From assembly GCF_024055715.1 (NCBI RefSeq), contig NZ_JAMXMV010000034.1, positions 1 through 64,000 on the forward strand: a stretch of 64,000 nucleotides of DNA, in the 5' to 3' direction. Below the pieces are notes generated by a model. The model saw only the letters and a program-made list of their open reading frames with translations, searched no databases and had not been told where the DNA came from. The DNA comes from Actinoallomurus soli (GTDB lineage: Bacteria > Actinomycetota > Actinomycetes > Streptosporangiales > Streptosporangiaceae). Position 1 is the first letter of the stretch; every line of letters starts with the position of its first letter. Below, in pieces: positions 4,999-45,771 of the stretch. The translations under genes were made by a program, and so were the position numbers.

Positions 4999-6414
4999 TC
5001 AGCTGCCGAAGACCTGGAACTCCCAGAGCGAGTAGCCGTACGGAGTCCCCCGCTGGGTTCCGTACATCCGCACATAGCGGCCGGATCCGGAGACGCTCAC
5101 GTCCTGCACCCCTCCGGTGCCGCTGCCGGTCGAGTACACGGTGGTCCAGTTCGTGCCGTCGCCGGACGTCTGGATCTGGAACGCCTTGCCGTAGGCGGCC
5201 TCCCAGTTCAGCACGACGTGGCTGAGCTGGTGCACGGCACCCAGGTCGACCTGGAGCCACTGCGGGTCGCTGAACGCGCTCGACCAGCGCGACGAGGTGT
5301 TGCCGTCGGTGGCGTTCGCCGCGGCGGTGCCCGAAGCCTCGGTCGAGGAGGCGGTCGTCGGCCTGCCCTGGGACAGGTTCGTCCCGGTCCCGCCACCACC
5401 CGGCGCCTTGTTGTAGACGGCCACGTAGTCGACGTTGAGCTGCCCGCCGGACACGGTCGCGGAGTTCGGACCGCCGCCGAACGCGTCGGGGAAGCCGCCG
5501 CCCATCGCGAGGTCGAAGATGATGAAGAACGGGTGGTCGACGGCGTTCGCCCAGGTCGCGGCGTCCACGCGGTTCGCGCTCAGCGTGAAGTAGTTGCTGC
5601 CGTCGAGGTACCAGCGGATCTGCTCCGGCGAGACGGACCGGTCGATCTGCACGGCGTAGGTGTGGTACCCGGTCTGGCAGCCGGGGCACGCGTGCTCGCC
5701 GCTGCCGATGCCGGTGGACTCGTTGCACGGCCCGCCGGGGTTGGTGCCGCAGTGCAGCGTGCCGAAGACCGAGCTGCGGCCGTTGACGTCCTCCAGGATG
5801 TCGACCTCGCCCGACGTCGGCCACGAGGTGCCGGTGCGCAGCGTCGAGCCGAGCATCCAGAAGGCCGGCCAGTACCCGGCACCGTTCGCCGTGGTGACGT
5901 TCGGCTGCTGGATCGAGGCCTGCATCATCACGACGCCGCCCGGGGGCGCGCCGAACGTCGCGGCCTGCGTCTCGACCCGGCCGGACGTCCAGCCCGCGCG
6001 CGGGTCCGAGCCCGAGTGCAGGGCCTTGAGGACGAGGTGCCCGGCGCCGTCCTGGTAGACGTTCGCCGTGCTGTTGGTCATCGTCTCGATCTCACCGGTG
6101 CCGAAGCTGCTGCCCGGCCCGGTGTCGTACTTCCAGGTCCCGGTGTTGAGGCCGGTGCCGCTCGCGCCGGTGAAGTCGTCGCTCCAGGTCGTGGTGAAGC
6201 CGGCGGGCGGCGCGGGTACGGCGGCGGGCGCGGCCGTGCCCGCTCCGGCCGGTGCCGCGCTCGCTCCGGCGGGAGCGGCGGCGGCCCCCGGGGTGATCAG
6301 GCCGGCGGCGAGGACGAGCGCCCCGGCGGCGGCCCTGAGCCGGCCCTTCCACGAGGCGCGGCCGGTGGCCGGCGGCCGCTCGCGATGGCGTCTCGCGTGC
6401 CGTTCGAGATGCAT
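4999..6414 (-). CDS. Secreted GH16 endo-beta-1,3-glucanase (laminarinase-type) with C-terminal discoidin domain
   Basis: A 471-residue secreted beta-glucanase. It has a long Arg-rich then hydrophobic signal region (about 1-50), an Ala/Pro-rich linker, a GH16 jelly roll (about 72-330) with the catalytic motif GEVDILE placing E203, D205 and E208, then a Gly-rich linker and one F5/8 type C domain (about 345-471). The start ATG is preceded by GGAG at good spacing. It is the second gene of an operon with the GH64 gene 89 bp upstream. Its discoidin domain is closely similar to the one at the N-terminus of the GH64 protein (shared stretches SSAFSDPQWLQ and WEAAYGKAFQIQ). Beta-1,3-glucan is the likely substrate; other GH16 specificities are possible. 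Confidence 0.9.
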   Translation of the reverse strand: MHLERHARRHRERPPATGRASWKGRLRAAAGALVLAAGLITPGAAAAPAGASAAPAGAGTAAPAAVPAPPAGFTTTWSDDFTGASGTGLNTGTWKYDTGPGSSFGTGEIETMTNSTANVYQDGAGHLVLKALHSGSDPRAGWTSGRVETQAATFGAPPGGVVMMQASIQQPNVTTANGAGYWPAFWMLGSTLRTGTSWPTSGEVDILEDVNGRSSVFGTLHCGTNPGGPCNESTGIGSGEHACPGCQTGYHTYAVQIDRSVSPEQIRWYLDGSNYFTLSANRVDAATWANAVDHPFFIIFDLAMGGGFPDAFGGGPNSATVSGGQLNVDYVAVYNKAPGGGGTGTNLSQGRPTTASSTEASGTAAANATDGNTSSRWSSAFSDPQWLQVDLGAVHQLSHVVLNWEAAYGKAFQIQTSGDGTNWTTVYSTGSGTGGVQDVSVSGSGRYVRMYGTQRGTPYGYSLWEFQVFGS

Positions 6415-41092: not shown

Positions 41093-42361
41093 TCAGCGCG
41101 GATCGACCAGGAGCTCGAACCCGGTTGGGGTGAGGGTGGCCCGGGCGTCGGTCCGCACTTCACCCTCGATGCGGAACCTCAGCCGTTGCAGAAGAACCGC
41201 GATTATTGTGATCATCTCGGTGCGGGCGAAGCGCGCTCCGAGGCACCGTCGTGGGCCGGCACCGAAAGGCACGTACGCGCCCGGCGGCGGCGAGAACTGC
41301 TCCCACCTTCGGATATCGAACCGCTCCGGATCGGGATAGCACTCGGCGACCCGGTGCGTGACCCAGAAGGGGATGACAACGCGCGATCCCGGCGGCAACG
41401 TCCACGAACCGCAGGCGGCGTCCTCGCTCACCGCCCGTCCCGCGACCCAGCTCGCCGGCCATAGCCGCAGCGTCTCGTCGACGGCCCAGCCAAGCTCCGG
41501 TGGCTCCGGTCCGGAGCCGACCCACCGATCCGCTGCGGCTCTCGCCGTCTCCTGCTGATCCCCGTGACGCGCCAACTCGACGAGCACCCACGCCGTCGCC
41601 GCCGCCGGGACTCCGTGCGCGGCCAGGAGTATCGAGGTCAGTGCGTCGACCACGGCGGCATCGTCGAGACCACCGCCGTAGAGCACGTCGACGAGCCCGC
41701 CCTCGCCGTCGCTCTTCGCCGTTTCCAGCAGCGCGGCGCGCATCTTCCGGGCCCGCCTGCTCGCGCGCCACTCCCGGCGCTGGACCAGCTTTACCCACTC
41801 CGGGAAATCATACGGGCTAGCGACGATCGGGAATAGGGCGTCCAGCATCGCCTGTGCCGTCTCCGGAATGGCGGAGGCGGCCCGGGTTCCGAAGCAGAAC
41901 CGGGCGACCGACGCCGAGGTGACCCCCGCGAGAGTCGCCATCAGATCGTCGATGCGGCCCCGCTGAAGCATTCGCTCGGACAGTTGCCCGGCTGTCCCGG
42001 CCAGCCAGCGCGCGTGTTCCTCGATCATCTCGGCGGTCATGCCGACGATGGCCGTCCTTCGAGTGGACATCCACGCGTTGAGCCGCGCGGAACCCGGTGT
42101 CGCCGTGGGCTTCTTCCGCCTCAGGTCACGATCCAAGTAGTTCGTTCGGTTCGTGTTCCGGAGTACGGCGTGCACCTCCTCAGGCCCTGTCACCAGAATG
42201 GTGCCCGGCCAGAGCCGCACCACCGGCCCGTACCGGCGGGCCACCGCATAGAAGAACCCGAGCCGATCGGCCTTATAAGAATGCACCGCGCTGGCGCGGT
42301 CGATGTCTAGGGCGGGTATCTCATCGGTATTCCGCGCGGTCCTGCTGATATCGGCAGTCAT
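41093..42361 (-). CDS. Cytochrome P450, probable crosslinking enzyme of the upstream peptide
   Basis: A 422-residue soluble cytochrome P450. The heme-binding loop FGAGPRRCLGARFA places the axial thiolate at Cys373; the K-helix ExxR is in DETLRLWP. The I-helix reads AAHGVPAAATA, lacking the acidic residue before the usual Thr, as occurs in P450s that do not hydroxylate. The ATG at 42361 has only a distant GGGGGA. A 31-codon peptide gene ends 89 bp upstream in the same transcript. Known P450s in this setting join aromatic side chains of a ribosomal peptide by C-C, C-O or C-N bonds; that role is inferred here. No ferredoxin gene is adjacent. Confidence 0.88.
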   Translation of the reverse strand: MTADISRTARNTDEIPALDIDRASAVHSYKADRLGFFYAVARRYGPVVRLWPGTILVTGPEEVHAVLRNTNRTNYLDRDLRRKKPTATPGSARLNAWMSTRRTAIVGMTAEMIEEHARWLAGTAGQLSERMLQRGRIDDLMATLAGVTSASVARFCFGTRAASAIPETAQAMLDALFPIVASPYDFPEWVKLVQRREWRASRRARKMRAALLETAKSDGEGGLVDVLYGGGLDDAAVVDALTSILLAAHGVPAAATAWVLVELARHGDQQETARAAADRWVGSGPEPPELGWAVDETLRLWPASWVAGRAVSEDAACGSWTLPPGSRVVIPFWVTHRVAECYPDPERFDIRRWEQFSPPPGAYVPFGAGPRRCLGARFARTEMITIIAVLLQRLRFRIEGEVRTDARATLTPTGFELLVDPR

Positions 42362-42450
42362 TGATCAACCAGTCCCCCAGCGTACCCGTCGTTCACCCGA
42401 TCGGCGCCTCCCGCTGGGAGCAGGAAAGCGGGAGGCGCCGGACACTCGAC

Positions 42451-42546
42451 CTAAACCCAGGCGTAACTGGCTGGGTGCTCCTTGATGCCCACCGTGCGCG
42501 CGATCTTGTGAATCACACGACTGAGCGGGGACGCCTGCTTGGCCAC
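42451..42546 (-). CDS. Putative 31-residue RiPP precursor peptide upstream of the P450
   Basis: GTG at 42546 to TAG at 42451, 31 codons, preceded by GGGAGG at ideal spacing and by its own promoter. The first two thirds are basic and helix-prone like a leader (KQASPLSRVIHKIARTVG); the C-terminus is KEHPASYAWV, in which Tyr28 and Trp30 are the only aromatic residues apart from the two His. A Tyr-x-Trp core next to a single P450 is the arrangement of biarylitide- and atropopeptide-type RiPPs. Expected chemistry is a Tyr-Trp (or His) crosslink followed by leader removal. No peptidase or exporter adjoins. The ORF and its signals are seen; the product class is inferred. Confidence 0.72.
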   Translation of the reverse strand: MAKQASPLSRVIHKIARTVGIKEHPASYAWV

Positions 42547-42582
42547 TGCACACCTCCCTCCGCCTGGAGCGGGACACAAATC

Positions 42583-42611
42583 ACGGTAATGCGCAGTCAA
42601 ATACCCGTCAA
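42583..42611 (-). promoter_or_regulatory. Strong promoter of the peptide-P450 operon
   Basis: Minus strand TTGACG (42606-42611) and TACCGT (42583-42588) at exactly 17 bp spacing, giving a leader of about 30 bases before the GTG at 42546. No operator symmetry is seen. Confidence 0.72.
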
Positions 42612-42636: not shown

Positions 42637-43872
42637 CTACATCCGCCGACTCGTACGGCCGGCGTTCGAGGTCGCACACAGAGCATCGTCGACCAGCCTG
42701 CTCTCGGCCGCTTCGATGCGGAGGACGTGGTCCGCCGATTCGGCGTTCGCGCCCGACAGGGAAACTGTGACGCCGCGCCGGCCGTCGGCGGTGACGCCGG
42801 TGGCGGTGATCCAGCCGGAGTCGCCGCCTTCGTGGCCCCAGTACATGCCGCCGCACGACAGCGGGCGGGAGAAGATCCCCAGCCCGTTGCGGGCGCCCGG
42901 CATGAGCGGCTCGAACTTCTCGCCCACGGGAACGGCCTGCTTCATCTGCGCCAGTTGCGCCGGGGGCAGGAGGCGGCCGCCCAGCAGGGCGCGGAAGAAC
43001 CGGTCGAGATCCGCGGTGGTCGAGACGAGCCCGGCCTCTCCGTTGCCGGCCAGGCCGACCTGCTCGGTGACGTCCACGAGCGGTCCACCGGTCTCGAACC
43101 GCTGGTAGGTCTCGGCGTGGGGCCGGGGCAGCGTGGGTGACGCGCCCGGCCAGAACGTGTGACGGAGACCGAGCGGCCGGACGATCCGGTCCCGTACCTC
43201 CTCATGCCACGGGTGCCCGGTGACCCGCTGGATGACCATGCCGAGCAGGACGTACCCGGTGTTGGAGTAACTCCAGTCCGTCCCGGGCCGGAAGTCCGGC
43301 CGGTGGCGCATCGCCCGCGCGACGATCTGCTCGGCGGTGTAGGTGTCGTACCGGTGCTGGTAGAAGTCCTCCGCCGAGGTGTAGTCGGGATAGTCGTCGT
43401 GGATGCCGCTGGTGTGCTGGAGCAGGTTACGGATGGTGATCGCGCGGCCGTCGTTGCCGTTTCCGGACACCACGCCGGGCAGCCATCGCTCGACCGTGTC
43501 GTCCGGGGAGAGCCTGCCCTCGCCGGCCAGTTGCAGGATCACGGTGGCGACGAACGTCTTGGTGACGCTGGCGATCCGGAGGTAGCCGTCCGGAGAGACC
43601 GGCCGCCGGGTCGTCAGGTCGGCGACGCCGCTGCCGGCGGTCAGGTCCCGGCCGTCAGGGGTGTGCAGGCGGGCCTGCACCCCGGTCACGCCGAGTGCGG
43701 TGATCGCGTCGGCGTCGCGCCGGAGCTCGATCCGGTCGCCGTGCTGTGGGGCCGCGCTCGCGCCGGGCATCCAACCGGTGGAGAGGGCTCCGGCCACGAT
43801 GGCGGCCAGGGCCAGGTTCCGCCGGGCGGATCGGCCGCGCCGCCGCGGTGGGTGAATCGCTGAGCTCGTCAT
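42637..43872 (-). CDS. Exported serine hydrolase (beta-lactamase/D-Ala-D-Ala carboxypeptidase family)
   Basis: A 411-residue exported protein. A basic n-region and hydrophobic segment (ALAAIVAGALSTGW) form the signal, cut near GASAAP. The class C beta-lactamase-like fold has the SxxK nucleophile in IASVTKTF, the YxN motif in WSYSNTGY, and HxG in GHEGGDSG. Close relatives include Streptomyces R61 DD-carboxypeptidase and various esterases; the substrate is not fixed by sequence. The ATG at 43872 lacks a clear ribosome site. It is divergent from a two-component system that may control it. Confidence 0.87.
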   Translation of the reverse strand: MTSSAIHPPRRRGRSARRNLALAAIVAGALSTGWMPGASAAPQHGDRIELRRDADAITALGVTGVQARLHTPDGRDLTAGSGVADLTTRRPVSPDGYLRIASVTKTFVATVILQLAGEGRLSPDDTVERWLPGVVSGNGNDGRAITIRNLLQHTSGIHDDYPDYTSAEDFYQHRYDTYTAEQIVARAMRHRPDFRPGTDWSYSNTGYVLLGMVIQRVTGHPWHEEVRDRIVRPLGLRHTFWPGASPTLPRPHAETYQRFETGGPLVDVTEQVGLAGNGEAGLVSTTADLDRFFRALLGGRLLPPAQLAQMKQAVPVGEKFEPLMPGARNGLGIFSRPLSCGGMYWGHEGGDSGWITATGVTADGRRGVTVSLSGANAESADHVLRIEAAESRLVDDALCATSNAGRTSRRM

Positions 43873-43984
43873 GGGCGTCGACGCTAGGTCTGGCCGGGGG
43901 AAGCGGACGATACAGCGCTCCAGTGAGAAAAAGGGGTAGTGGGCTGTAGTGCCCGGCCCGCTCACCGTGGCTCAGACTGTGCGG

Positions 43985-45139
43985 ATGAACTCCCCTGGGG
44001 CCGGTCGGCTTCCGGCGATGTGGCGCGGTCTGGCCTATCTGCTGGTGAGCCTGTTCACCGCCGCGGTCGCCCTGCTCGCGTCGCCCGTACTCATCGTCCC
44101 GGCGATGGCCCGCGCCTGGGCGTCCTGGCATCGTCGCCGCGCCGACCGGCTGCTGGGCCGTCCGCATTCCGGACCCGTCCGTGCCGGTGCGTGGCGGGTT
44201 CTCGGGTGGCTGGGCACGTACATCGTGACGGGTCTGGCGTTCGGGCTCGTCGCGGTGGTGTGCGCGGGCAACGCCGTGGCCACGGCCGTCACGGTGCCCT
44301 TGTGGTGGGCGTTGCCGGCCGGCACCCGTGCGGGCGGCTTCGCCGCCGGTGTCCCCCTGACCGGGTGGGGCACGGCACTGACCCTGGGAACCGGGCAGTT
44401 CGTCATCTTCGCCGCCCTGACGTACGGGCTTGTTCCACCGCTGGCGCGCCTGCACGCCCGCGTCTGCGTCGCGTTGCTGTCCCCCTCGGCCGCGGACCGG
44501 TTGGCGCGGCGGGTGGAGACGCTGACCGAGACGCGGGCCGGCGCCATGAACGCCCACGGCGCGGAACTCCGCCGGATCGAACGCGACCTGCACGACGGCA
44601 CCCAGGCCCGGCTGGTGGCCATCGCGATGCGGCTGGGCGCGGCCCGTGAGTCGCTCGGCGAGGATCCCGAGCTGGTGGGCAGGTTCCTGCGCGAAGCGCA
44701 TGAGAACACCGAGGAGGCCATGGCGGAGTTGCGCGAGGTGATCCGGACGATCTACCCGCCGATCCTCGCCGATCGCGGACTCGTCGGGGCGCTGACCGCC
44801 CTGGGGGCCCGGTCGGCGATCGACACCACCCTCGACATCGGCGACCTCGGCACGGTCCCCGCCGCGGTCGAGGCCGTGGCCTACTTCACCATCGCCGAGG
44901 CGCTCACCAACGCCGCCAAGCACAGCCAGGCCGCCCGGACCACCGTCCGCGCCGTACGCGCCGGCGACCGGCTGTCGATCGGGGTCAGCGACGACGGGAT
45001 CGGCGGCGCCGACGAGACGCTGGGCACCGGCCTCGCCGGGATCCGCCACCGCGTTCTGGCGCTCGACGGCACCGTGCACGTTCACAGCCCCACCGGCGGC
45101 CCGACCGTGATCACCGTGAGCCTGCCGTGCGGATCGTGA
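43985..45139 (+). CDS. NarL/LiaS-type sensor histidine kinase
   Basis: A 384-residue membrane kinase. The N-terminal half has four hydrophobic helices (a putative-sensor domain common in actinobacteria) with little extracellular loop. The dimerisation/phosphoacceptor helix (HisKA_3) carries His in RIERDLHDGTQARLVAIAM; the HATPase domain shows EALTNAAKHS (N box) and DDGIGGA (G1). The ATG at 43985 is preferred on protein grounds, with GTG codons at 43949 and 43961 as alternatives. The response regulator gene overlaps its end by 13 bp. The signal is unknown, probably membrane-associated. Confidence 0.9.
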   Translation: MNSPGAGRLPAMWRGLAYLLVSLFTAAVALLASPVLIVPAMARAWASWHRRRADRLLGRPHSGPVRAGAWRVLGWLGTYIVTGLAFGLVAVVCAGNAVATAVTVPLWWALPAGTRAGGFAAGVPLTGWGTALTLGTGQFVIFAALTYGLVPPLARLHARVCVALLSPSAADRLARRVETLTETRAGAMNAHGAELRRIERDLHDGTQARLVAIAMRLGAARESLGEDPELVGRFLREAHENTEEAMAELREVIRTIYPPILADRGLVGALTALGARSAIDTTLDIGDLGTVPAAVEAVAYFTIAEALTNAAKHSQAARTTVRAVRAGDRLSIGVSDDGIGGADETLGTGLAGIRHRVLALDGTVHVHSPTGGPTVITVSLPCGS

Positions 45140-45771
45140 TCGCCGAGGACAACGTCCTGCTCTCCAGCGGGCTGGAACTCCTGCTGACCGCCAGGGGCTT
45201 CGACGTCGCCGCGATCGCCCAGGACGCCCCCGCCTTCATCAGTGCCGTCGCCGAACACCGGCCCGACGTCACCATCGTCGACGTACGGCTGCCGCCGACC
45301 TTCCGCGACGAGGGCATCCACGCCGCCCTCCATGCCCGCCGCCGGTACCCCGGCCTGCCGGTGCTCGTCCTCTCCCAGTACGTCGAGCAGCAGTACGCCG
45401 GCGAGCTGATCTCCGACAAGCGCGGCGGCGTCGGCTATCTCCTCAAGGACCGGGTGAGCCGGGTGGGCGAGTTCGTCGACGCCCTGCGCCGGGTCGCCGA
45501 CGGCGGCACGGTCATGGACCCCGAGGTGATCGCGCAGCTCCTCACCCGGCACGCCCACGACCCGATCGCCGACCTCACACCGCGCGAACGCGAAGTGCTC
45601 GCCCTGATGGCCGAAGGAAAGGACAACGCCACCATCGCGGCCCGGCTCGTGATCACCGAGAACGCCGTGCACAAGCACATCGGCAACATCTTCGCCAAGC
45701 TCGGCCTCTCGCCTGCCGACAGCGGCCACCGCCGCGTCCTCGCCGTCCTCACCTATCTCAGCCGCCAATGA
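45127..45771 (+). CDS. LuxR/NarL family response regulator
   Basis: A 214-residue DNA-binding regulator. The receiver domain has the acidic pair EDN, the phosphoacceptor Asp in TIVDVRLPP, and Lys in YLLKDRV. The C-terminal LuxR HTH reads LTPREREVLALMAEGKDNATIAARL and KHIGNIFAKLGL. The GTG start lies within the histidine kinase gene, so translation is coupled and the pair forms one system. Target genes may include the divergent serine hydrolase and the operon itself. Confidence 0.92.
   Translation: MRIVIAEDNVLLSSGLELLLTARGFDVAAIAQDAPAFISAVAEHRPDVTIVDVRLPPTFRDEGIHAALHARRRYPGLPVLVLSQYVEQQYAGELISDKRGGVGYLLKDRVSRVGEFVDALRRVADGGTVMDPEVIAQLLTRHAHDPIADLTPREREVLALMAEGKDNATIAARLVITENAVHKHIGNIFAKLGLSPADSGHRRVLAVLTYLSRQ

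Follow-up and report, generated by a model that had tools for sequence, protein, structure and literature searches.

A conserved aromatic-ended peptide gene beside a cytochrome P450 in Actinoallomurus soli: a probable minimal P450-RiPP cassette

RiPPs in which a Tyr and a Trp side chain are linked are already known: micitide 982 contains a Tyr C6-Trp C5' bond and lapparbin, a 'cyptide', a Tyr C6-Trp N1' bond (PMC13250620, PMC13383641, PMC12299652). Precursors of the form MxYxW occur among the biarylitides (PMC13417212), and ApyO, the P450 of the aminopyruvatides, forms a crosslink in YLY and also modifies substrate variants carrying YxW (PMC13192836). Atropopeptide leaders carry the motif KSLK (or RSLK, ESLK, KSRK, KPLK, PSLK) (PMC11450843). 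A survey of P450 RiPPs counts 1057 clusters in 11 classes (PMC12299652), and earlier P450-RiPP surveys may already contain the P450s described below. The locus considered here lies in a 64,000-nucleotide stretch of DNA from Actinoallomurus soli (the window). Like micitide 982 and lapparbin it combines one P450 with an aromatic-ended precursor for which the same Tyr-Trp side-chain bond is predicted, a likeness that is drawn by description and in which the bond is known for the two RiPPs and only predicted for the window pair. We propose, with a probability of about 0.8, that the pair is a RiPP precursor and its modifying P450 in a minimal two-gene cassette; we infer that the peptide is the substrate of the P450 and is subsequently processed.

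The first-pass annotation had described a 31-codon GTG-started ORF behind a well-placed ribosome-binding site and, 89 bp further on the same strand, a P450, and this arrangement was borne out (Table 1). Translation of the ORF gives VAKQASPLSRVIHKIARTVGIKEHPASYAWV*, the precursor being written M(V)AKQASPLSRVIHKIARTVGIKEHPASYAWV, with the C-terminal end ASYAWV and with Tyr28 and Trp30 as the predicted ring residues. GGAGG is likewise found 5' of the precursor start codons of A. spadix and Actinomadura KC06 (see below), and a longer, 49-residue precursor read from an upstream TTG was dropped because conservation begins at the GTG/ATG behind GGAGG. Comparison with the KC06 precursor indicates purifying selection (pN/pS 0.298/0.667); against A. 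spadix pS is 0.23 and pN 0.13 and frame-shifted readings do not stand clearly apart, the signal being weak because few sites differ. A promoter upstream of the ORF had also been claimed. The element TTGACG-N17-TACCGT is present, and A. spadix has TTGACG-N17-TACTGT at the aligned position, but it fell below the threshold of a consensus promoter scan, which did not report it because TACCGT is too far from consensus, and it is not conserved in Actinomadura KC06.

Table 1. Positions of the pair, its associated elements and nearby genes in the window.
Feature	Position	Strand	Remarks
Cytochrome P450, 422 aa	41093..42361	minus	Pfam p450, E=3.5e-42
Intergenic stretch with stem-loop	42362..42450	minus	Stem 12-14 bp, G+C-rich, without U-run
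Precursor peptide gene	42451..42546	minus	31 codons + stop, GTG start
Shine-Dalgarno sequence GGAGGGAGG	42553..42561	minus	6 nt 5' of precursor GTG
Promoter-like element TTGACG-N17-TACCGT	42583..42611	minus	Read in sequence; aligned in A. spadix
Secreted class-C-beta-lactamase-like serine hydrolase	42637..43965	minus	Conserved in 5/8 Actinoallomurus genomes
Histidine kinase/response regulator pair	43949..45139, 45127..45771	plus, plus	Divergent from hydrolase

A search with the P450 among 347 genomes of the order (threshold E=1e-40) returned one match in a congener at 83%, one in another genus at 66% and one at 34%. The first two are from Actinoallomurus spadix KCTC 9252 and Actinomadura sp. 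KC06, and an independent search with the peptide gave matches directly upstream of both P450s, VTKQASPLSRLILKLARMVGIKEHPASYIWH in A. spadix, ending YIWH, and MIKHASLIGRVRHTFARWVGIREHPATHYWL in KC06, ending HYWL. Precursor and P450 were both matched in no other of the 347 genomes, and a fourth peptide match (G024) was rejected as it sits within another gene. Across the window, A. spadix and KC06 the leader is conserved and the C-terminus is variable except at the ring residues, which are Y/Y/H and W/W/W; the middle residue is A/I/Y and the last one V/H/L. Conservation at the first ring position is not strict, KC06 having His there instead of Tyr. The co-conserved pair with variable C-termini that the earlier reading led one to expect is therefore present, as YAWV, YIWH and HYWL behind a conserved leader, with three more distant pairs in addition, and before the close P450 homologues the ORF is intact, neither absent nor frameshifted.

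A pattern scan of genome contigs with the single P450 gave no matches, and an alignment-based pattern scan of 84,980 GTDB species yielded only A. spadix, KC06 and Nonomuraea deserti KC310, the P450 of which stands at 34%. Searching plasmids by tblastn added P450 homologues from Nocardia sp. NBC_00511 (42%, plasmid NZ_CP107850.1) and Streptomyces sp. NBC_00161 (27%, plasmid NZ_CP108158.1). These last three P450s were found without the peptide, and each has an RBS-led ORF of 26-28 aa upstream: MTKIMTLTVLRLNRGKMGGRYHWATPTG in N. deserti (end RYHWATPTG), MSRRLLYVAARLIGAKTRVRKYIWDVS in Nocardia (end KYIWDVS) and MAKKISFIVSRVFGRSGDMAGYYNYR in Streptomyces (end GYYNYR). All six precursors contain [YH]-x-[WY] with 1 to 5 residues after the motif, which reads YAW, YIW, HYW, YHW, YIW and YNY in the window, A. 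spadix, KC06, N. deserti, Nocardia and Streptomyces, respectively. An ORF of 20-40 codons with an SD-like sequence, Ar-x(1-2)-Ar near the C-terminus and a distance to the P450 of at most 300 bp occurs upstream of one of 30 control P450s versus 6/6 in the family. When only the members found without the peptide are counted, the comparison (3/3 versus 1/30) gives a Fisher value of about 7e-4, calculated by hand and only indicative because the three loci had already been noticed by inspection when the criteria were chosen.

A hairpin lies between precursor and P450 at five of the six family loci (z −2.0 to −5.4), the Streptomyces NBC_00161 locus having no such hairpin (z +0.4). In the three close loci two of its stem pairs are altered on both sides and pairing is retained. 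The element is probably a partial terminator or an mRNA stabiliser, its presumed role being attenuating or stabilising.

The I-helix of the window P450 is LLAAHGVPAAATAW and the heme motif is FGAGPRRCLG. An alignment with 47 other P450s places AAHGVPAA where the others have AGHETT, with Gly and Val, then Pro, at the positions of the Glu and Thr. It had been noted at first reading that the acidic residue before a conserved Thr is missing; the acid is indeed missing, but the Thr is not kept, since with AAHGVP in the place of AGHETT both residues are replaced. The usual Thr is Val, Ile or Ala in all six family P450s and is followed by Pro in each of them, and the acid is lost in five, with Glu retained in Nocardia. 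Oxygen activation in P450s usually relies on the I-helix Thr, and the unusual I-helix raises the question of how this P450 activates oxygen without it. AlphaFold, given a four-sequence alignment, yielded no usable structure of the window P450 (pLDDT 39).

Reference P450s for phylogenetic comparison were picked via their precursors, namely tryptorubin-type (WYIWY with KSLK), cittilin-type (PYSYY) and biarylitide (MRYYH, MRYLH). In a tree of 48 P450s the six family members form one clade (92/97) separate from all three of these groups, with the deep placement uncertain because of long branches. A tree of 33 P450s, from which very long branches were left out and which includes the cittilin-type and 25 general actinobacterial P450s, again gives one clade (100/99) apart from both. 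On these trees we would place the six P450s together and outside every known group sampled. The comparison with peptide-crosslinking clades that had been suggested thus yields a clade of its own, and a grouping with terpene/fatty-acid hydroxylases, which would have spoken against the earlier reading, was not found, the clade lying inside none of the general actinobacterial P450 groups sampled. In the class search, cittilin-type P450s (L021, L022) had the highest scores of those not belonging to the family. Among NCBIfam RiPP-P450 models the best match of the window P450 is ApyO (NF050147), at 110.8 bits against a cut-off of 525; kinship with ApyO was rejected because the score is far below cut-off and unspecific, another P450 of the same genome reaching 150 bits.

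The cittilins resemble the window pair in that a single P450 gene directly follows the gene for a short precursor (27 aa) whose C-terminal core is aromatic. They differ in their YxYY core, in keeping AGFETT in the I-helix and in their separate P450 clade, and none of the six family precursors matches the cittilin precursor model (NF038373; control 59.5 bits, cut-off 34), so the locus was not assigned to the cittilins. Biarylitides share with it the three-residue Ar-x-Ar ring, which is predicted here, and one P450 directly downstream. In contrast to the family precursors of 26-31 residues with a leader, and to the 31 residues and conserved leader of the window precursor, theirs have five residues with aromatics at positions 3 and 5; their P450s (L072, L073) lie far from the family clade, and a biarylitide identity was rejected on precursor length and P450. 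The two biarylitide loci themselves, MRYYH and MRYLH, come from two genomes of the same taxonomic family as the window genome, each directly before a P450; an initial biarylitide pattern in Streptomyces was discarded, its sole match lying within a larger frame. With P450-crosslinked RiPPs in the wide sense (cyptides) the pair shares an aromatic-ended precursor co-conserved with one P450, at six loci, the bond between aromatic side chains being predicted. The suggestion that a Tyr-x-Trp-Val core would be new or rare has to be divided: Tyr-Trp linked rings and MxYxW biarylitides are known, and the predicted ring is therefore not new chemistry in kind, but the P450/leader family looks new, and the novelty of the locus looks to lie there.

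Atropopeptides of the tryptorubin type also have a two-gene cassette, a precursor of 25-30 aa, a basic leader and an aromatic C-terminus, and the ...KSYAWYIWY of Streptomyces tryptorubin precursors superficially resembles ...ASYAWV, which could suggest a truncated atropopeptide locus with the core AWV. Against this, KSLK or a variant of it is absent from all six family precursors. The window precursor has no WxxW or WxxY core; it ends in AWV, with no aromatic residue beyond the Trp, and lacks the xWxxxx core in which Trp2 is linked to a later aromatic residue. The tryptorubin precursor model (NF038372) detects its own precursor at 55.8 bits (cut-off 33) and is silent on 6/6 family peptides, and tryptorubin and cittilin precursors with their P450s behaved as expected as positive controls in the same analysis. 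The heme motif (FGHANERCWG in the atropopeptide P450) and the I-helix region differ as well, and the P450 clades are separate, although where the long branches attach at depth is uncertain. Atropopeptide identity was therefore rejected for want of the leader motif and core, and we attach hardly any weight to a truncated form. Even less likely, and in our view negligible, is a chance ORF before an ordinary P450: ORFs of 31 codons arise often in G+C-rich DNA and a comparable one precedes one of the 30 control P450s, but protein, position and RBS are conserved in three species, three more show a similar arrangement, and all three independently found relatives have such an ORF. Because the protein is conserved before the P450 in two other species and a short ORF precedes every P450 of the clade, it is confirmed that the ORF is not there by chance.

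It could instead be a leader ORF that controls translation or transcription of the P450, the enzyme acting on an unrelated small molecule. A short ORF and a conserved hairpin directly before the P450 do resemble attenuation, and other biosynthetic genes are absent nearby. However, conservation is at the level of the amino-acid sequence, and no single regulatory codon is repeated in a row. The aromatic motif is found again even in peptides whose other residues can no longer be aligned, the 89 bp gap is without translational coupling, and no small-molecule cluster surrounds the pair in the window; we judge this explanation very improbable. That the P450 modifies the peptide in another way, by hydroxylation, by a Trp-to-backbone bond or by joining neighbouring aromatics (Tyr-Trp in HYWL), is unlikely but deserves more consideration. 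Sequence alone reveals no bond, H-Y-W in KC06 offers more than one joinable pair, and P450s elsewhere in RiPP pathways catalyse hydroxylation or form a bond to the backbone (PMC13192836, PMC13417212). On the other hand, every one of the six precursors has, close to its C-terminus, a pair of Tyr, His or Trp residues with exactly one residue between them, which is the spacing of the known three-residue biaryl ring, and we regard a specific Ar-x-Ar side-chain bond formed by the P450 as reasonably probable.

For the two-gene RiPP cassette we envisage that the leader, which is basic and probably helical and comprises about residues 1-27, would be bound by the P450 such that the C-terminal Tyr28-Ala29-Trp30 enters the active site. 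With electrons supplied by ferredoxin partners encoded elsewhere, the P450 would oxidise one aromatic ring and couple the other through a C-C or C-N bond with loss of 2 H, and this coupling of Tyr and Trp would close a three-residue ring before the leader is removed by host peptidases. The hairpin 3' of the precursor gene probably keeps the precursor transcript in excess over that of the P450. A further-reaching proposal, which we offer tentatively and consider rather unlikely, is that the P450s constitute an undescribed peptide-macrocyclase clade, marked by Val, Ile or Ala for Thr followed by Pro, that converts 26-31-residue precursors into three-residue Tyr-x-Trp, His-x-Trp and Tyr-x-Tyr rings with a bond type new to RiPPs. 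The family adds a P450 clade and a new leader family, and its predicted natural Tyr-x-Trp, His-x-Trp and Tyr-x-Tyr substrates would be useful for studying P450 bond choice and in peptide stapling. Because the precursor genes are too short for usual annotation and no NCBIfam model detects them, such cassettes would be overlooked or listed as solitary P450s; the enzymes of Nocardia and Streptomyces carry no annotation beyond 'cytochrome P450', without an entry for the peptide gene. Rfam and PADLOC gave no matches.

No peptidase, transporter or redox partner adjoins the pair in the window, and neighbouring genes are common only to the two Actinoallomurus genomes that have the pair. In three congeners homology to the window breaks off within the hydrolase gene bordering the pair, about 17-40 bp short of its 3' end, and neither precursor nor P450 is found beyond that gene; the two are thus present or absent together. 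The secreted hydrolase was rejected as a leader peptidase because congeners that lack the pair also have it and because it does not adjoin the pair in KC06. On the other side of the hydrolase lies a divergent histidine kinase/response regulator pair.

Several features of the distant loci may be added. The unannotated Nocardia precursor MSRRLLYVAARLIGAKTRVRKYIWDVS (L074) lies at 5844-5927, and the annotated start of its P450 (5953) falls inside the hairpin, so that a GTG about 40 bases further on is probably the true start. In N. deserti and Streptomyces NBC_00161 the P450 gene is immediately followed by one for an MFS-type transporter, which is not the case in the window or A. spadix. In N. 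deserti (L018, 8620-11583) precursor, P450 and transporter, the last identified by reading of the sequence, stand in a row, with a large SARP/AfsR-like regulator upstream on the opposite strand. At the Streptomyces NBC_00161 locus (L075, 2687-7164) the genes for precursor, P450, MFS transporter, alpha-hydroxy acid oxidase and LLM flavin-dependent oxidoreductase follow one another, possibly as a larger version of the cassette.
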